A stretch of 64,000 bases of DNA from Nitrospira sp. (GCA_016873495.1 VGXC01000015.1:1-64000), one strand, 5' to 3'. Counted from the stretch's first letter, positions 33,433 through 44,356 are shown. Notes: a model not told the origin generated them from the letters alone. Translations and numbers: made by a program.

Positions 33433-34200
33433 CTACCGGATGTCCTGAAAGAAGGCGCGTGGCAGGACCGGCAGGCGGAATTGCACGTAAAGGATAATCA
33501 GGAGCACGCGGGCGAAGGACCGCCAGATGCCCATCTGCACGAACTTACGCGGGTCGGTAAGCACCGGCGGATCGAGCAGGATCGGCTTCGTCACCCGCAG
33601 AAGCTTCTCGCAAAAGGCCACGTCTTCGAGAATCGGCTGATCGGGAAATCCGCCCACCTGCGCAAAGAGCGACCGCCGCACGAAGAGCCCCTGGTCTCCA
33701 TAGATGATCCGGGACCGGATGCAGCGGAAGTTGTCCAGGAAGGAAATCAGCGCCAGGCGCCAGTCCGAACCGGAAAACCGGTGCATGAAGCCGCCCGCCT
33801 GGACCGACTCGTCCGTCTCCATGCGATTGAGCCGCCGGATCGCGCCCTCCGGCAAGATCGTATCGGCGTGGAGAAAAAGCAGGAGTTCCCCCCTTGCATG
33901 GTTGGCGCCGGCATTCATCTGTGACGCGCGCCCTTTCGTCGCATGAAGTAGGCGCGAGGCACGAGGCACGAGGCTATCGGCAAGACTCGAAGGGCTTTCG
34001 GACAGCCTCATTCGCCCCTGCCTCTCGCCTCTTGCCCCTTGCCCCTTGCCGAGCATCTCCTCGACAATCCCCACCGTCCGGTCGGTGCTCTCTCCGTCTA
34101 CCACGATGACTTCATAGTCGCCGCGCTGTTGGAAGAGCCGGCGCAAGGTCTCCGGCAAGACTTTTTCTTCGTTGTAGGCGGGAATGATCACGGAAATCAT
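33433..34200 (-). CDS. Family 2 glycosyltransferase with a repeat-derived insertion
   Basis: 255 residues, with the pattern of the small TIGR04283-like glycosyltransferases. The GT-A core is clear: SVIIPAYNEEKVLPETL, VIVVDGESTDRTV, KGRASQMNAGA, LLFLHADT as the metal-binding region, and GDQGLFVRRSLFAQVGGFPD. Between VEEML and the LLHATKGRA segment lie about 35 residues (about 50-86) rich in G, R, S and Q that have no place in the family; they are encoded by a 7-nt repeat tract. The frame is kept, and the extra loop lies between the second strand and the substrate-binding helix. The start overlaps the previous stop by four bases. Confidence 0.8.
   Translation of the reverse strand: MISVIIPAYNEEKVLPETLRRLFQQRGDYEVIVVDGESTDRTVGIVEEMLGKGQGARGERQGRMRLSESPSSLADSLVPRASRLLHATKGRASQMNAGANHARGELLLFLHADTILPEGAIRRLNRMETDESVQAGGFMHRFSGSDWRLALISFLDNFRCIRSRIIYGDQGLFVRRSLFAQVGGFPDQPILEDVAFCEKLLRVTKPILLDPPVLTDPRKFVQMGIWRSFARVLLIILYVQFRLPVLPRAFFQDIR
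33950..34053. repeat. 7-nt tandem repeats inside the glycosyltransferase gene
   Basis: Two tracts: GAGGCAC, GAGGCAC, GAGGCTA near 33956-33976, and CTCTCGC, CTCTTGC, CCCTTGC, CCCTTGC near 34022-34050. Both have a 7-nt period. They bracket and encode most of a non-conserved loop of about 35 residues. Confidence 0.8.
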
Positions 34201-34838
34201 GTTTCAACCGTCAGCCAAGCGGGCAGGTAGCGTTTGGCATCCGCCGTCCAAGCGGTTGGGTCTTCGTCGATGGATACGAAGAGATCGTGCAATGTCGCCA
34301 CCATGGACTCGACCAAGGCGACATACTCATGGGCGCGGGCACGGAGGGCGCCGGTGTCCGTCTCCCCTGCCGCGATCGCTCGCTTCAAGGCGCGACAGCC
34401 GAAGGCATAGTGGGCCTCCTCTTGATGGATCAGAATGCGGCGCAAGCGGCCGAAGGGCGCTCCGCGCTTCGCCAGCCCCAGCTCGACTCGCTTCAAAATC
34501 GCCTCTCCCAGGCCTTCCAGGATAATCTGCTCCGCCAGCAACGTTTCGGCCCAGTCCCGCCTGGCGACTGCGGCTTCGAGCCTCCGGCGATATTCTTCCA
34601 GCGACGGCAGCAGCGGGCCGGTTCCCAGATGTTTGGGGGACAGCCAGGCAATCGCACCGTGAAACACGAGGGCATGGGTCGCCTCCTGGCGGGACTGGCT
34701 CAGCAGAAACGCCTTCGTCCCAGGATCAGGCGCCAACTCCGCCTGCCAGGCGGCGCAATCCCTTGCCAATAGCTCGCCATGTTCCAGAAACTGCAGCAAG
34801 CGGGCGATCGGCACCCGTTCATCAGGGCGTACCAGCAT
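34197..34838 (-). CDS. Ferritin-like (diiron) domain protein
   Basis: 213 residues, all helical. The iron-ligand pattern of ferritin-like four-helix bundles is present: ExxH in QEATHALVFH, a mid-protein Glu pair in AEQIILEGLGE, and ExxH in HQEEAHYAFG. A diiron centre is therefore probable. Such proteins serve as oxygenases, oxidases or iron stores; no substrate can be named. It lies within a tightly spaced run, coupled by ATGA overlap to the glycosyltransferase gene, so they probably share a pathway. The spacer upstream is filled with a 7-nt repeat. Confidence 0.72.
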   Translation of the reverse strand: MLVRPDERVPIARLLQFLEHGELLARDCAAWQAELAPDPGTKAFLLSQSRQEATHALVFHGAIAWLSPKHLGTGPLLPSLEEYRRRLEAAVARRDWAETLLAEQIILEGLGEAILKRVELGLAKRGAPFGRLRRILIHQEEAHYAFGCRALKRAIAAGETDTGALRARAHEYVALVESMVATLHDLFVSIDEDPTAWTADAKRYLPAWLTVET

Positions 34839-34843
34839 GGCTA

Positions 34844-34920
34844 CCTCATCAATGATGAACGATGAATGCGGAAGGATGAATGCACGGATCCGTGTAACTC
34901 ATCGTTCATCATTCATCGTT
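34844..34920. repeat. 7-nt repeats forming an inverted repeat
   Basis: GATGAAC, GATGAAT, GCGGAAG, GATGAAT on the left and CATCGTT, CATCATT, CATCGTT, CCGCATT on the right. The two halves are nearly reverse complements and could fold into a long hairpin in the mRNA between two genes of the same run. Confidence 0.8.
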
Positions 34921-35728
34921 CCGCATTGGTCATCGGGGGCGGACCGTTCAACCGCCAGTCATACTCGAGGAATTCCACGGTAAAGGGCGCCGACTTCAGG
35001 TCGCGCGCCAGGTCCTGGTCCGCCACGTATCGAGCCACGTAACCGAGGACCGAGCCGGCCTCCGCCGCAAAGTCATCCTCGAACCACTTGAAGATCATGG
35101 AAAGAGAGGCGACTCTTTTCTCCCGGTCGAATCGGTTTCGGGCCGGATCGTTGATGAATGCGCGGGCGCGCTCGTCCAACTGCGCATCCAGCCGGCCGGC
35201 CTGATAGGCTTCCTCCCGGAGTTTGGGGCAGGACCGCGAGGCGCAGACAATGGCAAAATGTATGCGCGGCTCGCGGAAATCCGGAATCAGCAGGTTTCGC
35301 TCCAAATCATAGAGCGTGATCCGCTCGCCGCCCACCCGATAGTCCCGCCCGAGAAAATAGCGGTACCGGCCGGCCAGGGTGCCCGGCGAATAGCCGTCCA
35401 GGATGCCCTGGATGGCGAAGGCGTTATAGGCATTGATCCAGAAGGCCAGCTGGTCCCGATCGGTCGGCAGGCCGGTCGGGTCCACTCGATTAAGCTGCGA
35501 CACATAGGCCCCGAACCGGCCGTCGGCCTGGATGGCCGGATAGTCTACCCGCCCGTCGAGCACCGAGGCCCGGAGCAGCTCGTCGAACAACTGATGGGTG
35601 AAGGCCTGCGGCGCCAGAGGCTCCAGAGGATGAAACTCGCGCGGGACGCCGGCACAGCCGGCCAGTAGCGCCAGGCAGCAGGCAAAGGTCGAGGATAAGG
35701 TTGAGTAAGGCACGTGCGCGCGCTTCAT
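34913..35728 (-). CDS. DUF547-domain lipoprotein
   Basis: 271 residues. The signal peptide ends with the lipobox LALLAGC. The domain of unknown function DUF547 is clear: FWINAYNAFAIQGILDGY, LYDLERNLLI, RIHFAIVCASRSCPKL, ARAFINDPARNRF and SMIFKWFEDDF. DUF547 shares the papain-like fold, and CASRSCP and the nearby His may form an active site, but no reaction is known. DUF547 proteins often occur near VTT membrane proteins and MerA-like flavoproteins, as here. The last codons overlap the repeat tract. Confidence 0.85.
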   Translation of the reverse strand: MKRAHVPYSTLSSTFACCLALLAGCAGVPREFHPLEPLAPQAFTHQLFDELLRASVLDGRVDYPAIQADGRFGAYVSQLNRVDPTGLPTDRDQLAFWINAYNAFAIQGILDGYSPGTLAGRYRYFLGRDYRVGGERITLYDLERNLLIPDFREPRIHFAIVCASRSCPKLREEAYQAGRLDAQLDERARAFINDPARNRFDREKRVASLSMIFKWFEDDFAAEAGSVLGYVARYVADQDLARDLKSAPFTVEFLEYDWRLNGPPPMTNAER

Positions 35729-35736
35729 CGTATCTC

Positions 35737-35765
35737 CCTTAACCTGAACCTAAACCTCAGCCTGC
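35737..35765. repeat. Degenerate 6-nt tandem repeat
   Basis: AACCTG, AACCTA, AACCTC, AGCCTG in a 6-nt period in the spacer between two genes, running into the stop region of the radical SAM gene. Similar units occur at 39498-39585. Confidence 0.7.
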
Positions 35766-36748
35766 TTCAGCGTCAACGGCGTTCTCGCCGCCGTCACCGG
35801 ATGGCGAAGGATCGAGCCGACCACGCGGCTGCACAGGAGGTTGCAAGAGGACCGGTCCGAACAGCCGGCGATGGTCTCCCGGTCGAACCGCGCCAGAATG
35901 TCCGAAAGGGACTGTCGTAGCAGATTTCCGGCGAACGGTTGCGCCAGACAGGAAGCCACGTTGCCGGAGGCGTCGATGGCGATGCTGTACCGGCCCGCGT
36001 CGCAGCGATCCAGAGCTCCACCGCTCAACCAGCGGACGTTGTCCCGCAGGTACTGTCGGAAATAGCCCCTCGGCACCAGGCCCGATTCCAACACCTGTTC
36101 GAAGACGTCGGCCAGCATCCGGCGGTCATACTGCAATCCCTTGTCGGCCTTCCCGTACCGCTCGATGCCCCAATGGTAGGCCCCCACCACGGGCATGAAT
36201 CCATGGGCCTTGGCGAACCGCACCATCGACTCGACCTCATCGCGATTCGCCTCGCTCACGATAGTCGTCAGGTACTTGGGATGGGGAAAATCCTTCAGCA
36301 GGTCGATGCCCGCCAGCACCTCGGCCAGTTGGTCCGCGCCCCTGATCGACCGGTACCGTTGCCGGTTCAACGTGTCCAGGCTGACCGACAGGTTCAGCGG
36401 CAGCGAGGTCAGCCGTCGGACCAGCGGAGGAGTGAACCGCGTGCCGTTGGTGATCAGCGTAAGGCCGAAGCCCAGCGCGTGCAGGTCCTCCAGAATCTCC
36501 GGCAGATCCCGGCGTAACAGCGGCTCCCCTCCTTGCACGAAGAGGAAACGCAGGCCGTCCCGATACAGTTCGGCGCCCACCCGCCGGATTTCCTCGCGCG
36601 TCATCTCGTACCGCCCCCGGTTCAACGGCAGATCGCAATAGCCGCAAGCGGAGTTGCAGCGGAGAGTGACTTCGAAGATGGCAAGGATCGGCCGCCCCCG
36701 GATGACGTTGAGCACCGGCCTGGCGAGGGATGCGAGCGCAGGGGCCAT
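35750..36748 (-). CDS. Radical SAM protein with C-terminal iron-sulfur-type region
   Basis: About 332 residues from ATG 36748 (36787 is an alternative that would overlap the gene upstream). The [4Fe-4S] cluster motif CNSACGYC lies near residue 30, followed by LRFLFVQGGEPLLR and LTLITNGT. A cysteine-rich C-terminal part (CDAGRYSIAIDASGNVASC, and later CSDRSSCNLLC) fits a SPASM/Twitch-type auxiliary-cluster domain, found in enzymes that modify peptides or act as heme d1/PQQ-type maturases. No precursor peptide is visible nearby. It follows the molybdenum oxidoreductase gene by four bases. Confidence 0.8.
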   Translation of the reverse strand: MAPALASLARPVLNVIRGRPILAIFEVTLRCNSACGYCDLPLNRGRYEMTREEIRRVGAELYRDGLRFLFVQGGEPLLRRDLPEILEDLHALGFGLTLITNGTRFTPPLVRRLTSLPLNLSVSLDTLNRQRYRSIRGADQLAEVLAGIDLLKDFPHPKYLTTIVSEANRDEVESMVRFAKAHGFMPVVGAYHWGIERYGKADKGLQYDRRMLADVFEQVLESGLVPRGYFRQYLRDNVRWLSGGALDRCDAGRYSIAIDASGNVASCLAQPFAGNLLRQSLSDILARFDRETIAGCSDRSSCNLLCSRVVGSILRHPVTAARTPLTLKQAEV

Positions 36749-36752
36749 GGGA

Positions 36753-37772
36753 TCAGGCCTGGTCTGAAACGGTGACGGTGATCTCATGGAGCCCCGTGGC
36801 CCCGTCTGGAAAGGGGGCTTGCTCCGTCGAGGCCTGAAGTCCCCCGGCCCCGTCTCTGGCCCGGACCATCAAGGTATACCGGCCGGACTGTGGGGGATGC
36901 CAGCGGCAGGTCCAGAAGCGCCAGGCCGAGGGCGAGAGTTCCGGCTCCAACTGCGCCGGCATCCACTGATGGCCCCCGTCTGGGCTCAGTTCCACCGAGA
37001 GGATGCCGCGACTGCCGGCGAAGGCCAGCCCTTTGATCACTTGCGCCCCGGCCCTGAGCCTGTCCCCGTGACCAGGCACATCGATGCGGGACATGGTCTT
37101 GATCAGCGCCTCCTCCGACCAGCCCTTTTGCTGGTAGTAGCCCTTGTAGTCCCGCTCTACCAACTCGATCTCCGTCAGCCACTGGACCTGCTTCATGCCA
37201 TAGACCCCGGGCACGATGATCCGCGCCGGGAAGCCATGGGCCTGCGGCAACGTGACTCCGTTCATCTTGATGGCCACCAAGACATCCCCGGCCATCGCCC
37301 GCTCGATCGGCAGACTGTCCGAGTACCCATCCGCCGCCAGAAAGACGACATCCTTGGCCTGCGCAATCACCCCTGTTTCCTCCAGCAGAGCCTTCAACGG
37401 CACCCCTTCCCACAGGGCCGTGCCGATGGCGTCGCCCGCGACGCTGTTGCCCACGCATTCCAGCGTCACGATCTCGGACCACATCGGCCGAGCCAGCAGT
37501 TGAGAATACTTGAGCGAGACCGGATGTTCCACCAGCCCCTTGATCGTCAGATCCCACTCGTCGATCCTGACGGTCGGTGGGCTGCGGTAGGACGTGACAT
37601 AGAAGTCCTCGTTCGGCGTCATCGCCGGCGTGGCCTGAGCTTCACCGCGGAAGAGCTGGCCCAGCACCGTGCCCATAGCGGGAGAGGGCCAAGGCAGGGC
37701 CGAGGCCAGAGCCAAGCCACCGGTCAGCATCGCCCCCCCACTCAACAATTGCCTGCGCGAGATCTTCCTCAA
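36753..37772 (-). CDS. Sulfite-oxidase-family molybdopterin oxidoreductase (MsrP/SorA-like)
   Basis: 339 residues. A Tat-type signal (SRRQLLSGG) exports the folded protein. The molybdopterin domain shows the Mo-ligand cysteine in TLECVGNSV, then GVPLKALLEETGV, AADGYSDSLP, GFPARIIVPGVYGMKQVQWL. A C-terminal dimerisation-type Ig domain (about 230-335) has FAGSRGILSVELSPDGGHQW. Relatives oxidise sulfite or reduce oxidised methionines in the periplasm. The gene is followed by a thioredoxin-like gene on its upstream side (31 nt) and the radical SAM gene downstream (4 nt). Confidence 0.85.
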   Translation of the reverse strand: MRKISRRQLLSGGAMLTGGLALASALPWPSPAMGTVLGQLFRGEAQATPAMTPNEDFYVTSYRSPPTVRIDEWDLTIKGLVEHPVSLKYSQLLARPMWSEIVTLECVGNSVAGDAIGTALWEGVPLKALLEETGVIAQAKDVVFLAADGYSDSLPIERAMAGDVLVAIKMNGVTLPQAHGFPARIIVPGVYGMKQVQWLTEIELVERDYKGYYQQKGWSEEALIKTMSRIDVPGHGDRLRAGAQVIKGLAFAGSRGILSVELSPDGGHQWMPAQLEPELSPSAWRFWTCRWHPPQSGRYTLMVRARDGAGGLQASTEQAPFPDGATGLHEITVTVSDQA

Positions 37773-37803
37773 GGCCTTTCACCCATTCCTCATCACCCGA
37801 CGC

Positions 37804-38316
37804 TCACGTATCCGATTCCGCCAACAGACTTTTAATCCACCGCTCGGTCTCGGCATAGCCGCCCTCGCCGATCCGCACGGTCCGGATGATGCCCCGCTTG
37901 TCGATCAGGTACATGGCCGGCCAGTAGCGATTGCCGTAGCGGTTCCAGGTCGCAAAATCGTTGTCGATCGGCACGGGATAGCGAATATCCTTGTCCTTGA
38001 GATAAGCCTTCACTTTCTCCACGTTTTTTTCATAATTGAACTCGGGCGAATGGACCCCGATCACGACAAAGCCTTGTTCTCTGAACCTCTCGTACCACTC
38101 CCGGACATAGGGCTCCACGTTCCGGCAGTTGTAGCAGCCGAAGGTCCAGAACTCGACCATCACCACCTTGCCCCGCAATTCGGCGAAGGAGACGGGCGTG
38201 CCGTTCAACCAGGTCTCGTTCTGGATATCCGGCGCCTTCATGCCGATCCCCGCCTCCGCCGCCGATCCGAGCAGCACCGCCGCCACGATTGCGGCTGCCA
38301 GCCGTCGCACGTTCAT
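37804..38316 (-). CDS. TlpA-like periplasmic thioredoxin
   Basis: 170 residues. A signal peptide (about 1-22) leads into a redoxin domain with EFWTFGCYNCRNVEPYVREW; the redox pair is CYNC. VVIGVHSPEFNYEKNVEKV and YPVPIDNDFATWNRYGNRYWPAMYLID (cis-Pro-like region) complete the fold. NRYWPAMY matches the DipZ/TlpA-like proteins with Trp-Pro before the cis-peptide. It probably donates electrons or isomerises disulfides in the periplasm, and may serve the adjacent molybdenum enzyme (inference). Confidence 0.82.
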   Translation of the reverse strand: MNVRRLAAAIVAAVLLGSAAEAGIGMKAPDIQNETWLNGTPVSFAELRGKVVMVEFWTFGCYNCRNVEPYVREWYERFREQGFVVIGVHSPEFNYEKNVEKVKAYLKDKDIRYPVPIDNDFATWNRYGNRYWPAMYLIDKRGIIRTVRIGEGGYAETERWIKSLLAESDT

Positions 38317-38320
38317 CGCG

Positions 38321-39547
38321 TTACCCCTTGGGAATGGAAATGATCGGCGTCTTGACGTTGGTCACGTCGGTCACCGTCATCTGAAATAGATTCGACAGCA
38401 CCGAAAAGGCCTCCTGGTTCCAGCTCGGCGTCATGCCGCCCGAAATCGGATATTTTCGGATCGAATAGTGCCGGCCTTCGAAGGGCACTGAAAACTCCGC
38501 GTCGGACGGCTCATCGGAGGATTCCTCGATGTCCAGAATGTGATCGGGATTGCGCGCCACCGGTCCTGACCGCGGATCCGGGTCCACGTGGAAGCCCGGC
38601 TCCTCGGCGATGCCGCGCGCGACAAAGCCGATAATCGCGTTGAAGCTCCGCAACTGGATCACGCCGCGCATCGGATAGTCTCCACCCGGGAAGCCGGGTC
38701 GGATATCTACGAAAATATGGTCGGCCGGGTACCGCTGCAGTTCCTCGTGCAGCCGGCGCCGCTCCTCGTTACCCAGCCAACGCAGCTCATAATTGGTGAT
38801 GGCGATCCGCCCGCCGGCCTTCCGGACCAGCGTCTGGGCGCGGTCCTTCGTCGGCATGGTCCAGCGATAGCCCTTGTCCAGCGCGGCCACCACTTCCACG
38901 GGCGCCAGTGCCCGGTCCAGCGCGACCGGAAAGGCCTCTTCGTAGGTGACCGATTCCACATAAAGCTGGCGCGCATGGTCGAGTCCCGCCAGGTGCAGCA
39001 GTCGGCGGCGAAACTCCATGAATTCCTGCTTGCGGCCCGGCTGGTTCAGATGCACGGTCCGGCCCTTCTCGGTTTCCAGGAGGACGCCTCGGCCCATCAG
39101 CCTCAACAGCATGCTGATGTCAAACCCCTGGTGATAGAGAAACTCGAAGTGGGACTCTTCGAGCGGCCGGAGCACGCGCTTGGTAAATTCTTCTCCCGAA
39201 ATGGGCACGATCGTGACCGTCGGGTTCTCCGCCACACTGGTCGAGTAACTCAGATTGAGCGGGCGCTCCGATGAATCAGTCGCGCGTCCAAACCCTCCGG
39301 CGATGCCGGCATCCACCCGGAAGTCGAAGGTGGCGGCCACGCTGGAAACCGCCGTGAAATGGACGGGGCGATAGTGGCGGGCGCGCGCGATGTTCAGCAG
39401 CAGCAGCTCCGCCTCGACCTGACTGGTCGTCCGGTCGTACTCCACCACCGCCCGATGCATGGCGATCGGCGACAGGCAGCCGGAGGCTGCGAGGACACAG
39501 ACTAAGGTCAAGGTTGAGGCCAAGCCTGATCCGAGCGCGCGTCTCAT
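38321..39547 (-). CDS. Conserved lipoprotein, unknown function
   Basis: 408 residues. The signal peptide and lipobox (VLAASGC) are clear. The mature protein starts SPIAMHRAVVEYDRTTSQVEAELLLLNIARARHYRPVHFTAVSSV-like and has no domain that I recognise, but the well-ordered motif style suggests a conserved family. Later segments such as HIFVDIRPGFPGGDYP and GMTPSWNQEAFSVLSNLFQM suggest a mixed alpha/beta fold. Position in the cluster, four bases from tlpA-like, implies a joint envelope role. Part of the signal peptide is encoded by a 6-nt repeat tract. Confidence 0.6.
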   Translation of the reverse strand: MRRALGSGLASTLTLVCVLAASGCLSPIAMHRAVVEYDRTTSQVEAELLLLNIARARHYRPVHFTAVSSVAATFDFRVDAGIAGGFGRATDSSERPLNLSYSTSVAENPTVTIVPISGEEFTKRVLRPLEESHFEFLYHQGFDISMLLRLMGRGVLLETEKGRTVHLNQPGRKQEFMEFRRRLLHLAGLDHARQLYVESVTYEEAFPVALDRALAPVEVVAALDKGYRWTMPTKDRAQTLVRKAGGRIAITNYELRWLGNEERRRLHEELQRYPADHIFVDIRPGFPGGDYPMRGVIQLRSFNAIIGFVARGIAEEPGFHVDPDPRSGPVARNPDHILDIEESSDEPSDAEFSVPFEGRHYSIRKYPISGGMTPSWNQEAFSVLSNLFQMTVTDVTNVKTPIISIPKG

Positions 39548-39585
39548 GGTGGGTTCACCTCAACCTCGACCTTAGCCTCAGCCTT
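39498..39585. repeat. Degenerate 6-nt repeats on both sides of a start codon
   Basis: AAGGTC, AAGGTT, GAGGCC, AAGCCT inside the signal-peptide coding region, and AACCTC, GACCTT, AGCCTC, AGCCTT just upstream of the start. The two parts are partly complementary, so the translation start could be enclosed in a stem. Confidence 0.7.
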
Positions 39586-39586
39586 C

Positions 39587-40345
39587 CTACTTCGCCTTTG
39601 AGAAAACGATGTCCCCGAAATAGGCCACCGCCGACTCCTTGGTATTGTCCGTATCGCTCATGATGGCCACGCCGTTGATCATCGGAGGCTCGCCGTCGAA
39701 GGCCTTTTTATAATCCTCGTACACGTTCCGTTCCTCCTCCTTCCACTCCCCGACACCCTGCGCCCCGCTTTCAATCACGATCATCTTGGCAAAGTCCGTA
39801 TAGGCATTGTCGATGAACAGCCCTTGCGGCGCCCTCGCGTCCCAGATGTAATTGATCGCCGCGATCGGGATATCCCCGAAGATCGCGCGGCCCGCCTTGT
39901 ACTTGGCCTTCCGGCCGAACCCGACCTTGTCCGGATCGTACTCGAAGGTGATGTAGAGCCGCGCCGGGTAATCGTCCCCCTGCTTCGTCGTCACATCGCT
40001 GGCCTTGAGCAGGTTGTCCACCTTCCACCTCCAGCGGACGATCGGATATTCCTTCGGATCGATCTTCACTTCCTTCGTCAGGCCGGAGGCCGAGGCCACG
40101 CTGGTCGCCTTGACCACGAGCCGGTCGCTGTCTTTCACCAGCGCGTAAACCGTGTGCTTCGGGACTTTCGGAAAGGTCAACGGCCTCCACCCGTCCGGCA
40201 ATTCTGTGCCTTCCTTCGCCGCCGAAAACTTCCCGACTTCGAGCATGGCACCCGATTGCGCCGACGCCCCACCGGGCAGCAGCAGGAGACCGAGGACGAA
40301 CCAGGCAGCCCGCCGGGTCGTCAGCGCATCTTTGAAAAGAGCCAT
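39587..40345 (-). CDS. DUF3047-domain protein
   Basis: 252 residues with a signal peptide (about 1-30, ending ASAQ). DUF3047 is recognised by PDGWRPLTFPKVPKHTVYALV, YPIVRWRWKVDNLL, GDDYPARLYITFEYD and NYIWDARAPQG. This is a periplasmic beta-sandwich-like family of unknown function that often accompanies DUF547-type clusters. The gene start overlaps the flavoprotein gene's end by 25 nt. Confidence 0.85.
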   Translation of the reverse strand: MALFKDALTTRRAAWFVLGLLLLPGGASAQSGAMLEVGKFSAAKEGTELPDGWRPLTFPKVPKHTVYALVKDSDRLVVKATSVASASGLTKEVKIDPKEYPIVRWRWKVDNLLKASDVTTKQGDDYPARLYITFEYDPDKVGFGRKAKYKAGRAIFGDIPIAAINYIWDARAPQGLFIDNAYTDFAKMIVIESGAQGVGEWKEEERNVYEDYKKAFDGEPPMINGVAIMSDTDNTKESAVAYFGDIVFSKAK

Positions 40346-41871
40346 GTCAGGATCTTCTTGGTCCGGTCGGTGAAATGGGCTTTGCGCCAGAGATGTACGA
40401 CCCGCTTGTTGACCTCGGCCTGCGTGGGATAGGGATGGATCGTCGCAGCCAGCGTCCCGGCGCCGGCGCCGGCCTTCATCAGCACTGAGAATTCACCGAT
40501 CATGTCGCCCGCACGGGCGGCCACGACCGTGGCGCCCAGCACCTTGTCCGTGCCCTTCTGAATGTGAATGCGTGCAAAGCCTTCGTCCTCGCCGTCCAGA
40601 ATCGCCCGGTCCACCTCGTCCAGCTTGAACGTGTAGGTTTCGACTTCGAGGCCCTTGGCTTTGGCATCCGCCTCGTACATCCCGACGTGCGCGACCTCCG
40701 GCTCCGTGAACGTGGCCCAGGGCATGATCAGGTTCTCCACATTGGCCTTCCCCAATCCGAACGGATGAGGAAACAGCGCGTTCTGGATCACGATTTGCGC
40801 CATCGCGTCCGCCGCATGTGTGAATTTGTACTTCGAGCAGATGTCGCCCGCCGCGTAGATGCGCGGATTGGTCGTCTGGAGATTGGCGTTCACCTTCACG
40901 CCCTGCTTGTCGTACTCCACACCGGCGCCTTCCAGGTTCAACCCCTCCACGTTCGGCGTACGGCCGACCCCCACGAGGATTTCATCCACCGTGATCTCGT
41001 ACTGCTGGCCATGCGAGTGCACCGTCATCCGCTTGCCGGCCTCCGTCTTCTGGATCTGCACATCCTTGCCGCAGCAGAGCAGTTTCACCCCGTCGCGCTG
41101 CATGGATTTCAGGACGATCTCGGCCGCATCCCGGTCCTCGTTGGGCATGATGCCATGCATCGCCTCGACGAGGTAGACCTCGCTGCCGAAGCGGGCGAAG
41201 GATTGCGCCAGCTCGCAGCCGATCGGCCCCGCGCCGATCACGCCAAGGCGGCGGGGCAATTCGACTAAGGAAAAGACGGTTTCGTTCGTCAGGTAGCCGG
41301 CTTCTTTCAAGCCAGGCGTGGACGGCGTGGCCGCGCGCGCACCCGTGCAAATGGCGGCTTTCGCGAACGTGAGCGTCCGGTTGACCGCATGGCCTTCCAC
41401 GGCGATGGTGTCCGGACTGGTGAATGTTGCGCTGCCGATGTAGACATCCACGCCCAGGCTCTTATAGCGATGAGCCGAATCCGCGTGGCTGATCCGCGCG
41501 CGCAGTTTGCGCATCCGTTCCATCGCCGCCGGGAAGTCGTACTTCACGCCGGGCGGCAGGTGGACGCCGAACTCCTCCGCGCGGCGCACATCGGACCAGG
41601 CGCGCGCGGCCCGGATCACGCCTTTCGACGGCACGCAGCCGACGTTCAGACAATCCCCGCCCATCAGATGTTTTTCGATCAGGGCCACCTTGGCCCCGAG
41701 GCTGGCCGACACGACGGCCGTGATGAGACCGGCCGTGCCGGCTCCGATTACCACCATGTTATACCGCCCGTCCGGCTCCGGATTGACCCATTGCGGAGGA
41801 TGGACGTTGTTGACCAGAACCCGATTGTGTTCGTCGTCCGGGAGCATGGTGCCAAGCTCATGTGCCATCAT
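40321..41871 (-). CDS. MerA-like FAD-dependent disulfide oxidoreductase
   Basis: 516 residues. FAD fold: VIGAGTAGLITAVVSASLGAKVALIEKHLMG; redox disulfide GGDCLNVGCVPSK near 74-79; NAD(P)-binding GVIGAGPIGCELAQSF; FAD second site IYAAGDICSKYKF; and the active-site His in TIHPYPTQAEVNKR. It resembles mercuric reductase and lipoamide dehydrogenase. It has no N-terminal HMA domain and no C-terminal vicinal cysteines, so mercury reduction is unlikely. Proteins of this group regularly lie next to VTT membrane proteins, as here (36 nt upstream). The electron acceptor is unknown. Confidence 0.85.
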   Translation of the reverse strand: MMAHELGTMLPDDEHNRVLVNNVHPPQWVNPEPDGRYNMVVIGAGTAGLITAVVSASLGAKVALIEKHLMGGDCLNVGCVPSKGVIRAARAWSDVRRAEEFGVHLPPGVKYDFPAAMERMRKLRARISHADSAHRYKSLGVDVYIGSATFTSPDTIAVEGHAVNRTLTFAKAAICTGARAATPSTPGLKEAGYLTNETVFSLVELPRRLGVIGAGPIGCELAQSFARFGSEVYLVEAMHGIMPNEDRDAAEIVLKSMQRDGVKLLCCGKDVQIQKTEAGKRMTVHSHGQQYEITVDEILVGVGRTPNVEGLNLEGAGVEYDKQGVKVNANLQTTNPRIYAAGDICSKYKFTHAADAMAQIVIQNALFPHPFGLGKANVENLIMPWATFTEPEVAHVGMYEADAKAKGLEVETYTFKLDEVDRAILDGEDEGFARIHIQKGTDKVLGATVVAARAGDMIGEFSVLMKAGAGAGTLAATIHPYPTQAEVNKRVVHLWRKAHFTDRTKKILTWLFSKMR

Positions 41872-41907
41872 GAGATCGCTCTCCTCGTCCGGATCAGGCG
41901 GCTGTGG

Positions 41908-42648
41908 TCAGGCGCCCTTCTTGGCTGCATACTTCTGATAGACCGTCGGCACCAGCGCCAGCAGGCCCAGCAGCGTGAAGGCCATCAGGACGTTGGGGGA
42001 CGCGATTTCCTTCAACGAGTTGATCGTTCCGAGCTGTCGCCCCGCGTAGGCATAGACGAAGCTGCCGGGGATGATGCCGATGGCCGTGGCCGTCACATAG
42101 GTGCCCAGGCTGACTTTGGTCAGGCCGGACAAGGCGTTCACGATAAAAAACGGGGCGACCGGAATAAGCCGGATCGTGATCAAATAACTGAAGGCGTTTT
42201 TCGCAAAGCCTTCCTGGAAGGGCGCAAGCCACCCGCCAAACTTGGCCTCCACCCAGTCCCGGAGCAGATAGCGAGACACCAGGAAGGCCAAGGTTGCGCC
42301 GCTGGTGGCCCCCAGATTGACATACACCGTTCCCACCAGGCTGCCGAAGAGGAGGCCACCGGCCAAGGTGAAGAATACAGCCCCCGGAAGGGACGCGGAG
42401 ACCAGCAGGCAGTAGGAGCCTATGAAGATGGCGACGGACGCGAAATAATGCTCTTCCGTAAACAGCAGCAGGTGATCGCGGTTGGCTTTGAGCGACTCGA
42501 GGGAAAGGTACCGGCCCAGGTCGAAATAAAAAAAGGCGCCGACGGCCGCGGCAACCAGCACGGCGATGGCGATCTTCCCTTTGATCGATGAGCCTACCGC
42601 CTCGGACTGGTCCATGGATGCCTGCATTATGATGTTTCTTTGTATCAT
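41908..42648 (-). CDS. VTT-domain (TVP38/TMEM64, DedA-like) membrane protein
   Basis: 246 residues. About six membrane segments enclose the VTT domain: SYCLLVSASLPGAVFFTLAGGLLFG, NLGATSGATLAFLVSRYLLRD, ITIRLIPVAPFFIVNALSGL and VTATAIGIIPGSFVYAYAGRQLG. DedA/VTT proteins move or scramble lipids such as undecaprenyl phosphate or phosphatidylethanolamine across membranes. The start at 42648 (MIQRN) follows a GGAG site; ATGs at 42627 and 42615 are possible. It heads the envelope/redox cluster. Confidence 0.85.
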   Translation of the reverse strand: MIQRNIIMQASMDQSEAVGSSIKGKIAIAVLVAAAVGAFFYFDLGRYLSLESLKANRDHLLLFTEEHYFASVAIFIGSYCLLVSASLPGAVFFTLAGGLLFGSLVGTVYVNLGATSGATLAFLVSRYLLRDWVEAKFGGWLAPFQEGFAKNAFSYLITIRLIPVAPFFIVNALSGLTKVSLGTYVTATAIGIIPGSFVYAYAGRQLGTINSLKEIASPNVLMAFTLLGLLALVPTVYQKYAAKKGA

Positions 42649-42878: not shown

Positions 42879-43049
42879 TCATGCGGTACGACAGAGGGAC
42901 CGTTCCCGACGGTTCCTCAGGATCAGGCCATCGCGCGCGTTCCCGCAGCAAATACAGCGCCACGCCCGGAAGTTCAGATGGCCGCTGTCATCGAGCAGAT
43001 CGTAGTACTGGTCGTGCACCATCAATCCGCGACACCTCGCGCAACGCAT
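42879..43049 (-). CDS. Small zinc-ribbon protein (56 residues)
   Basis: Starts at ATG 43049, chosen because AAGGAGGG lies 5 nt before it. Two cysteine pairs, CARC near 3-6 and CICC near 34-37, form a zinc ribbon around a short body with LMVHDQYYDLLDD and RAWRC. Proteins of this layout are common in Nitrospira-like genomes and unassigned. It is upstream of the small membrane protein. Confidence 0.65.
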   Translation of the reverse strand: MRCARCRGLMVHDQYYDLLDDSGHLNFRAWRCICCGNARDGLILRNRRERSLCRTA

Positions 43050-43305: not shown

Positions 43306-43653
43306 TTACTCAGACCGATCCTGGAGGGTGCGCTTGATGCGCTCGCGGGCGTCCGAGGAGAGGCCGGGACTGTCGGCGGGAGGCTCCGCACCTGCCAGCC
43401 GGTCGGGATGTCGGCGGAGGGCATTCCGCATGAAAAGCAGTTGGCGCCGGTACCGGTCGCACCATTTGCAGATCAGAAAGTGGACGCGAATCTTGAGGCG
43501 GGTGCCGAGAGGCAATGGATGATCCATGTCGTCGGAAATCAGGCGGACGATATCGCGACAGGTCGGCGTGATGCGGATCAGCCACCCGACCAGCGGGCCG
43601 ATGCGAAACTTCAATTGCGCGGGGTCTATTTTGGGTCCTATTTGCATGGACAT
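43306..43653 (-). CDS. Zinc-finger anti-sigma protein, copy 2
   Basis: 115 residues, paralogous to the protein at 44357-44626: CRDIVRLISDDMDHPLPLG, ICKWCDRYRRQL and a C-terminal SPGLSSDARERIKRTLQ. The HxxxCxxC-type set (HFLICKWC) fits a zf-HC2/ZAS anti-sigma domain, which binds an ECF sigma factor and releases it on a redox or zinc signal. No membrane helix is present, so it is a soluble type. It follows the sigma gene by three bases. Confidence 0.75.
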   Translation of the reverse strand: MSMQIGPKIDPAQLKFRIGPLVGWLIRITPTCRDIVRLISDDMDHPLPLGTRLKIRVHFLICKWCDRYRRQLLFMRNALRRHPDRLAGAEPPADSPGLSSDARERIKRTLQDRSE

Positions 43654-43656
43654 CGG

Positions 43657-44280
43657 TTACGCTGGCGACCGGCCAAACTGCTTCGCTTCCAGACATTGCC
43701 GCAAGTGCTTGCGGGCTCGGTGCAGCAGCACCCACAAGTTGGCGGAACTGATCTGCATCGCCTCGCAAATCTCCTCCGTGCTGAGTTCGTCCACTTCCCG
43801 CAGCGAGAAGACCTGCGCCATCTTAGGGGGCAGTTCCCCCAGGCAATGTTTCAGAATATCCCAAAACTGCTTGCGCTCCAGAATGCCGGCCGGGTTGTCC
43901 GGCCAGTCGAGCGGGGCCGTCTGGTCCAGCTTCCAGTGGCCTCCCTCGTCGAAGGTCCCGTCGTTATCCATCTCTCGGCCAAGCGCGTCGGGATCGTCGA
44001 CCGGCTGCTCGCGACAAGTCTTGCGGAATTGATCCACGATCTTGTGTTTCATGATACCGACCAGCCAGCTCCGCTCGGAGGACTGGCCGGCATACCGCCC
44101 TCGGGCTTGCAACGCGGCCAGGAACGTGTCCTGAACGACCTCCTCGGCCAGCTCCCTGTCCCGGACCCGGAGCATGGCGCAACGGAAGAGATAATCGCCG
44201 TGCTGGTCCGCCCAAGTTTGAGGATCGGAAAGACGTCGGGGCTCCACGTAAGCCTCACTGGGCCGAGGCCGGCCCGGCAT
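43657..44280 (-). CDS. ECF-family RNA polymerase sigma factor
   Basis: 207 residues from ATG 44280 (a GAGGT site lies 9 nt upstream). Region sigma2: HGDYLFRCAMLRVRDRELAEEVVQDTFLAALQARGRY and WLVGIMKHKIVDQFRK; region sigma4: LPPKMAQVFSLREVDELSTEEICEAMQISSANLWVLLHRARKHLRQCL with the helix-turn-helix. It directs core polymerase to a specific promoter set, probably an envelope stress regulon. It lies between two paralogous anti-sigma genes. Its C-terminal residues and anti-sigma 2 are almost contiguous. Confidence 0.9.
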   Translation of the reverse strand: MPGRPRPSEAYVEPRRLSDPQTWADQHGDYLFRCAMLRVRDRELAEEVVQDTFLAALQARGRYAGQSSERSWLVGIMKHKIVDQFRKTCREQPVDDPDALGREMDNDGTFDEGGHWKLDQTAPLDWPDNPAGILERKQFWDILKHCLGELPPKMAQVFSLREVDELSTEEICEAMQISSANLWVLLHRARKHLRQCLEAKQFGRSPA

Positions 44281-44356
44281 CACAGGAATACCTCGCCGCG
44301 GAGGCAGGGCTCCCCGTTCAAAGGTCGAGAATGTGCGCCGCGGGCGCACACAGACA

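Follow-up and report, generated by a model that had tools for sequence, protein, structure and literature searches.

The window, a stretch of 64,000 nucleotides (nt) from Nitrospira sp. (GCA_016873495.1 VGXC01000015.1:1-64000), lies on contig 15 of a Nitrospiraceae-type source genome of 3.19 Mb (G000; below, G numbers denote genomes and L numbers loci). Between positions 33433 and 42648, its minus strand carries a cluster of ten genes, which opens with a gene for a VTT-domain membrane protein (ending at 41908) and closes with one for a glycosyltransferase (GT; ending at 33433). An earlier note on this DNA had placed ten same-strand genes in this interval. All are found, all on the minus strand, and each family assignment is upheld by Pfam and NCBIfam profiles, except that the ferritin-like call is based on ligands and fold, as that gene lacks a Pfam match. 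The genes are, in order of transcription:

41908..42648, minus strand: VTT-domain (TVP38/TMEM64, DedA superfamily) membrane protein (PF09335, E 5e-25); start at 42648 or at an ATG slightly downstream
40321..41871, minus strand: MerA-like FAD/NAD(P)H disulfide oxidoreductase, PRK06370.1-3 subfamily (NF004991, 768.9 bits)
39587..40345, minus strand: DUF3047 exported protein (PF11249, E 5e-77)
38321..39547, minus strand: accessory lipoprotein, fold unassigned (no Pfam or NCBIfam match)
37804..38316, minus strand: accessory ResA/TlpA-like exported thioredoxin with a CYNC motif (AhpC-TSA, E 1e-18; ResA subfamily model)
36753..37772, minus strand: accessory Tat-exported sulfite-oxidase-fold molybdopterin protein (PF00174, E 5e-46)
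35750..36748, minus strand: radical SAM protein with SPASM/twitch-like auxiliary-cluster cysteines, core (PF04055, E 6e-25)
34913..35728, minus strand: DUF547 lipoprotein with lipobox LAGC, core (PF04784, E 9e-27)
34197..34838, minus strand: ferritin-like diiron protein with a fold like that of aldehyde-deformylating oxygenase (ADO), core (invariant ligands; AlphaFold2 and Foldseek)
33433..34200, minus strand: GT2 glycosyltransferase of a diverged TIGR04283 clade, core, last gene (TIGR04283, 213.4 bits)

The gaps had been described as mostly of 0-40 nt, and the coordinates agree, with a single exception of 74 nt between the DUF547 and ferritin-like genes, which contains a palindromic element. 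The other spacings are 36 nt (VTT-MerA), 39 nt (DUF3047-lipoprotein), 4 nt (lipoprotein-TlpA), 31 nt (TlpA-molybdopterin) and 21 nt (radical SAM-DUF547), while the MerA-like and DUF3047 genes overlap by 25 nt and the ferritin-like and GT genes by 4 nt. The molybdopterin and radical SAM genes are 4 nt apart if the latter begins at ATG 36748, or overlap by 35 nt with the start of the open reading frame (ORF) caller at 36787; the former start is most likely correct, because relatives begin near that position.

A conserved seven-gene core with accessory inserts

The ten proteins were searched in one set of 118 Nitrospirales genomes and the fetched regions were read by tblastn; two of these searches used concatenated queries, and their figures are counts among the matches listed. 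An alignment of the ferritin-like protein was also scanned with specific patterns against 84,980 species, which gave at least 80 loci and would allow for more distant relatives outside the order. Apart from a few probably mislabelled contigs, these loci carry Nitrospira or Nitrospirales labels, and as far as searched the protein appears to be specific to Nitrospirales. One contig labelled Verrucomicrobiota (KLAP45; L103) has Nitrospira-like genes for the radical SAM, DUF547 and diiron proteins with 57-64% identity, probably due to a binning error.

Co-occurrence was counted for those 47 of the 80 listed loci whose flanks are complete. The GT, DUF547 and diiron genes are present in all of them (47/47 each), followed by radical SAM (42/47), DUF3047 (38/47), MerA-like (36/47) and VTT (34/47), on the same strand throughout. 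These seven genes form the core, which is complete in 28 of the 47 loci as counted from the pattern table, and their clustering exceeds chance. The TlpA-like gene occurs in three of the 47 loci, the molybdopterin gene in two and the lipoprotein gene in none. The earlier note had treated all ten genes as one set that should not be rare in other genomes. This holds for the seven-gene core and fails for the full ten, which are found together in a single locus among those read (G064, L017), with nine in G116 (L036), the nearest relative of the window's genome in the survey. The survey thus rules out a ten-gene unit, and the lipoprotein, TlpA-like and molybdopterin genes are accessory inserts.

The locus is built of four parts: a near-universal front module (VTT-MerA-DUF3047), a radical SAM gene that can be separated, a trio of DUF547, diiron and GT genes that stays together, and redox inserts that are optional. 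This division follows from the front module standing alone, without the second half, for example in G027, G088 and G024, and from the complete absence of the radical SAM gene in five of the genomes, which retain DUF547-diiron-GT. One of these five is N. moscoviensis (L074), where VTT, MerA-like and DUF3047 genes are present as well. A MerA-like orthologue is present in 109 of the 118 genomes, the ferritin-like gene in 52.

Conserved gene order within one bacterial order could in principle keep functionally unrelated neighbours together. The whole seven-gene order is indeed seen in one order only, and the adjacent DHH-CBS-polyA polymerase gene is likewise conserved in place. Nonetheless, order, strand and short junctions are kept in two bacterial families whose proteins are about 47-65% identical, the DUF547, diiron and GT genes stay together even in rearranged loci, and other phyla have independent clusters of several of these gene families. 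We regard functionally unrelated neighbours as very unlikely.

Arsenosugar islands and the arsenic genes of Nitrospirales

Arsenosugar islands came to light when the MerA-like and DUF547 proteins were searched against annotated plasmids. On plasmids of Gammaproteobacteria, Betaproteobacteria, Bacteroidota and Cyanobacteria, varying subsets of VTT/MerA-like genes (fused or adjacent), DUF547 and TIGR04283 lie beside arsS/arsM, with VTT and MerA occurring as a fusion in Proteobacteria. For instance, the order in Acinetobacter portensis is arsS - VTT/FAD fusion - DUF547 - TIGR04283 - TIGR04282 - methyltransferase. The Burkholderia glumae plasmid contains arsS, a radical SAM gene adjoining DUF547, ECF and zf-HC2 genes and TIGR04283/04282, as well as the VTT/FAD fusion, bufferin genes, TetR and CMD. 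Cupriavidus combines ArsM, ArsS, VTT/FAD, TIGR04283 and TIGR04282 with a radical SAM-DUF547 pair, Hymenobacter has DUF547, TIGR04283 and arsS inside 5 kb, and Pseudanabaena shows the order TVP38 - mercuric reductase - arsM - TVP38 - arsS. In Thiodictyon, arsS is accompanied by TIGR04282 and a TIGR04283-like GT, with DUF547 and VTT/FAD not nearby. Independent arsS plasmid lineages number only about six, because the bulk of the arsS plasmid records are B. glumae clones; MerA-like genes occur in four of them, as does DUF547.

The accessory quartet of VTT, FAD oxidoreductase, DUF547 and TIGR04283 is complete in the window. The cluster also resembles the islands in its ECF and zf-HC2 genes and, in some members, in TetR and CMD, and shares with those of Burkholderiales a radical SAM gene adjoining DUF547. 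The statement of the earlier note that no such pathway is described for the full set overlooked these islands; the GT passes the TIGR04283 model for an arsenosugar biosynthesis glycosyltransferase (213 bits against a cut-off of 182). There are differences as well. The window's genome has its ArsM, ArsS and TIGR04282 genes away from the cluster, and a blast comparison with the plasmid islands examined detected neither DUF3047 nor the ADO-like diiron protein, nor this particular radical SAM protein. Island proteins are about 30-55% identical to those of the window, and the radical SAM protein of the plasmid islands may be an analogue, as the match covers 176 amino acids at 29.5% identity.

Because four core families adjoin arsenosugar genes in unrelated bacteria, the cluster probably acts on an organic arsenic compound, modifying or exporting it. 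More specifically, we tentatively propose, at a probability of roughly 0.4 and on comparative grounds, that Nitrospirales have here their own variant of the arsenosugar accessory island, which would tailor or export an organoarsenical glycolipid. The making and export of a modified lipid or glycan, as suggested earlier, fits the parts.

The arsenic genes of Nitrospirales bear on this proposal in both directions. ArsS is found in 109 of the 118 genomes (for its function and chemistry, see Cheng et al. 2021, as cited in PMC12159101). The window's genome itself contains arsS, arsM, TIGR04283 and TIGR04282: contig 3 carries an ArsM-like gene, ArsS (G000:C3:73407-74312) and an adjacent PiT transporter gene (L144), and a canonical TIGR04283-TIGR04282 pair (L169) lies about 35 kb from this group. 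Second copies of VTT-MerA-DUF3047 occur 13-24 kb from ArsM-ArsS in four genomes (G066, G062, G108 and G042), in islands that also hold bufferin genes and, in some, CMD or sterol-desaturase-like genes. G092 has a group of DUF3047, VTT and a MerA remnant at distances of 0.3 kb from TIGR04283 and 1.2 kb from ArsS.

Several observations weigh against an arsenic role. Neither arsS (TIGR04167) nor arsM is in the cluster; both are located on another contig. ArsS is present in 59 of the 66 genomes without the ferritin-like gene versus 50 of the 52 with it, and as it is similarly common either way, presence and absence do not tie the four-gene half of the locus to arsenic; with ArsS nearly universal, the correlation of core and ArsS was set aside as uninformative. 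MerA-like homologues also occur on plasmids without arsS nearby, such as in Variovorax, and the four linkages at 13-24 kb were spotted post hoc and may share one ancestor. The cluster GT may have a substrate different from that of canonical TIGR04283 enzymes, because the cluster GTs form a separate clade with a long stem. Finally, operons for bufferins, which are copper-related ribosomally synthesised and post-translationally modified peptides (RiPPs), adjoin the VTT-MerA-DUF3047 unit in Nitrospirales.

The latter observation brings in a general metal or oxidative-stress envelope module of the copper/bufferin type under ECF control, in which arsenic genes would be fellow travellers of metal-resistance islands. 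Bufferins chelate copper (PMC12452194), and their operons lie next to VTT-MerA-DUF3047 in Nitrospirales (seven genomes) and, in Burkholderia glumae, next to the VTT/FAD fusion. ECF and zf-HC2 genes lie upstream of the cluster, and the TlpA-like and sulfite-oxidase-fold proteins are encoded by redox genes. Yet the window and nearly all core loci examined have no bufferin genes, copper buffering needs neither a glycosyltransferase nor a radical SAM enzyme, and the DUF547-TIGR04283-arsS linkage of Hymenobacter occurs without bufferin, which makes such a module unlikely. Bufferin-type operons (DUF2282-DUF692-DUF2063-DoxX) were seen beside VTT-MerA-DUF3047 in L040, L182, L184, L185, L187, L189, L190, L193 and L194, and a DUF692-like gene within or near the core in L050 and L161.

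The phylogeny of the GT bears on another alternative. The cluster GTs form one group (support 92/93, stem length 2.19) apart from both the canonical and the plasmid TIGR04283 proteins, so that no grouping with members from arsenosugar loci was found. The core might accordingly make an arsenic-free envelope glycolipid or glycan, with the GT, DUF547, VTT and MerA-like proteins recruited from an arsenosugar island and now serving another lipid-linked sugar that is tailored by the radical SAM and diiron enzymes. The separation of the cluster GTs from the canonical TIGR04283 proteins of the same genomes agrees with this, as do the lack of linkage to ArsS in most genomes and the blast results for the plasmid islands, in which the radical SAM, diiron and DUF3047 proteins have no counterpart bar the distant radical SAM match. 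On the other side stand the VTT-MerA-DUF3047 copies linked to ArsM-ArsS in several Nitrospirales genomes and the company that DUF547 and TIGR04283 keep with arsS across phyla. An arsenic-free product is somewhat unlikely in our judgement.

Core proteins and a proposed route

The VTT protein belongs only to the wider VTT domain family in Pfam. It scores 27.6 bits against the UptA equivalog (undecaprenyl-phosphate transporter), for which the cut-off is 250 bits, and its relatives in Acinetobacter and Burkholderia, in which it is fused to the MerA-like domain, are 34-36% identical. The flavoprotein passes NF004991 (768.9 bits; cut-off 620) and remains below the cut-off for MerA (TIGR02053; 375.7 against 454.45 bits). 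It has the FAD disulfide oxidoreductase fold and redox-active cysteine pair of MerA, with C74 and C79 invariant, but its 516 amino acids include no NmerA domain, and the C-terminal cysteine pair is missing, since the last cysteine is at position 345. Mercury reduction was therefore rejected. For DUF3047, the AlphaFold2 model (pLDDT 83) is a jelly roll, matched by Foldseek in the PDB to CBM4/CBM11 and unrelated jelly-roll domains at TM-scores of about 0.4-0.6; a carbohydrate-binding-module-like jelly roll is predicted.

In the radical SAM protein, C44, C48 and C51 as well as C262, C280, C309 and C315 (numbered from the 36787 start) are 98-100% conserved among 58 relatives. Like the SPASM maturases (PqqE, MftC, SkfB) and MoaA, it has a CxxxCxxC motif and C-terminal auxiliary-cluster cysteines, at least four in number, but it falls far under every NCBIfam cut-off shown. 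The SPASM score of 21 bits is slightly below its cut-off, and the closest families by sequence, all weak, are tetraether synthase, cytosylglucuronate decarboxylase, SkfB, MoaA and PqqE. A role in RiPP maturation appears less likely, as neither a precursor peptide nor a RiPP recognition element was seen in the cluster, where the ten genes leave no room between them; small ORFs upstream (43049-42879 and 42824-42705) are inconsistently conserved. The protein is not ArsS, as TIGR04167 matches a different gene on another contig.

The DUF547 lipoprotein has four invariant residues in 82 relatives (C25, the lipobox cysteine, H157, C162 and C167) and an invariant CASxSCP motif. PDB sequence searches with its profile and with that of the diiron protein gave no useful match. 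Six ligand positions of the diiron protein (E22, E52, H55, E108, E140 and H143) are invariant in the alignment of 85 relatives. When its AlphaFold2 model (pLDDT 87) is compared with the PDB by Foldseek, ADO-type structures take all of the first 25 places, ahead of R2-like proteins, and the best 12 ADO matches have TM-scores of 0.77-0.83 at 15-19% identity. With cyanobacterial ADO it shares the predicted fold and the E / ExxH / E / ExxH ligand set. Unlike ADO, none of 23 members matches the Pfam ADO family at E up to 1 (Pfam gives weak hints of R2, phenol hydroxylase and COQ7), and the cluster has no acyl-ACP reductase gene, for which reason long-chain hydrocarbon synthesis by an ADO-AAR pair was dismissed. 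The models point to a putative new ADO-fold diiron family.

If the locus is an arsenosugar accessory island, cytoplasmic ArsM and ArsS would supply a dimethylarsinoyl-nucleoside and then the arsenosugar core. The MerA-like flavoprotein could provide reducing equivalents, for example for thiol/disulfide or As(V)/As(III) reduction, holding the arsenical trivalent, and the diverged GT might add a sugar or load the arsenosugar onto a carrier. The radical SAM and ADO-like diiron proteins would each perform one tailoring reaction, oxidative or radical, after which VTT would carry the lipid-linked product over the inner membrane, where the DUF547 lipoprotein and the jelly-roll DUF3047 may handle or hold it in the periplasm, at the envelope. 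Where present, the TlpA-like and molybdopterin proteins could add periplasmic redox steps. A bolder version, which we consider improbable, has a Nitrospirales-specific ADO-like diiron oxygenase, a second radical SAM enzyme acting after ArsS and a VTT transporter to the envelope yielding a new organoarsenical, such as an arsenolipid bearing a sugar or a hydrocarbon that contains arsenic.

Among the nitrite oxidisers of soils, fresh water and treatment plants, Nitrospira hold a major place. If the arsenosugar reading is right, complex organoarsenicals would be among the products of nitrifiers. The locus would then offer candidate genes for the later steps (reduction, glycosylation, lipid transfer and export), for which no assigned enzymes were found in the papers searched. 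It would also give a testable context to DUF547, DUF3047 and TVP38/TMEM64-flavoprotein pairs. Literature searches on these families taken together turned up nothing on the cluster, and a link between Nitrospira and arsenosugars receives no more than passing mention in the papers searched.

Accessory proteins, upstream genes and palindromes

Relatives of the accessory lipoprotein occur in 80 of the 118 Nitrospirales genomes, mostly at 40-68% identity, elsewhere in the genome and often in several copies. This family, large in Nitrospirales and without a Pfam model, is a candidate new family; as one of several paralogues located mostly away from the core, the lipoprotein was rejected as the key gene. 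In the TlpA-like protein, C61 and C64 are invariant in 12 relatives. The molybdopterin protein shares with SorA and the sulfite oxidase family the Moco-binding domain, the dimerisation domain and the catalytic cysteine (Cys106, the Moco ligand, invariant in 15 relatives). It differs in having Thr, Tyr and Val aligned with R55, H57 and the Arg five positions after the Cys in SorA (2blf), and with these sulfite-binding residues substituted, sulfite oxidation was discounted. Its gene adjoins DUF547 in other Nitrospirales too. A second sulfite-oxidase-fold protein, about 30% similar, is encoded directly before a lipoprotein homologue in L015, L016 and L018-L021 and directly before DUF3047 in L036; a cytochrome b561-like membrane protein adjoins it in L015, L018 and L036, and the two possibly form a separate periplasmic redox unit.

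Two genes just upstream of VTT were overlooked by the earlier note:

43306..43653, minus strand: zf-HC2 protein (PF13490, E 2e-5)
43657..44349, minus strand: ECF sigma factor (Sigma70_r2/r4)

The ECF sigma factor is a candidate regulator of the cluster and the zf-HC2 protein its probable anti-sigma partner. Both recur adjoining VTT in G116, G027 and G072. The former shares 38% identity with the ECF factors encoded in the arsenosugar islands of Acinetobacter and Burkholderia, and the latter has 38% identity over 66 amino acids with its zf-HC2 counterpart in Burkholderia glumae. Scans of the locus for sigma-70 promoters and terminators gave matches at chance level. Also upstream of VTT, at 42879-43049, lies an ORF for a 56-amino-acid zinc ribbon with two CxxC motifs (MRCARCRGLMVHDQYYD...), and similar small proteins are found within the L017 and L048 clusters.

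Three imperfect palindromes were noted. The one in the DUF547-diiron gap (34850-34928) has 30-nt arms that match at 83%, and another (39502-39575; 25-nt arms, 84%) spans the start and signal peptide of the lipoprotein gene. A weaker one (71%; 33965-34050) is an in-frame insert within the GT reading frame. Elsewhere in the same genome, at C19, C29 and C32, there are further inverted pairs of the AAGGTTGAGG type.

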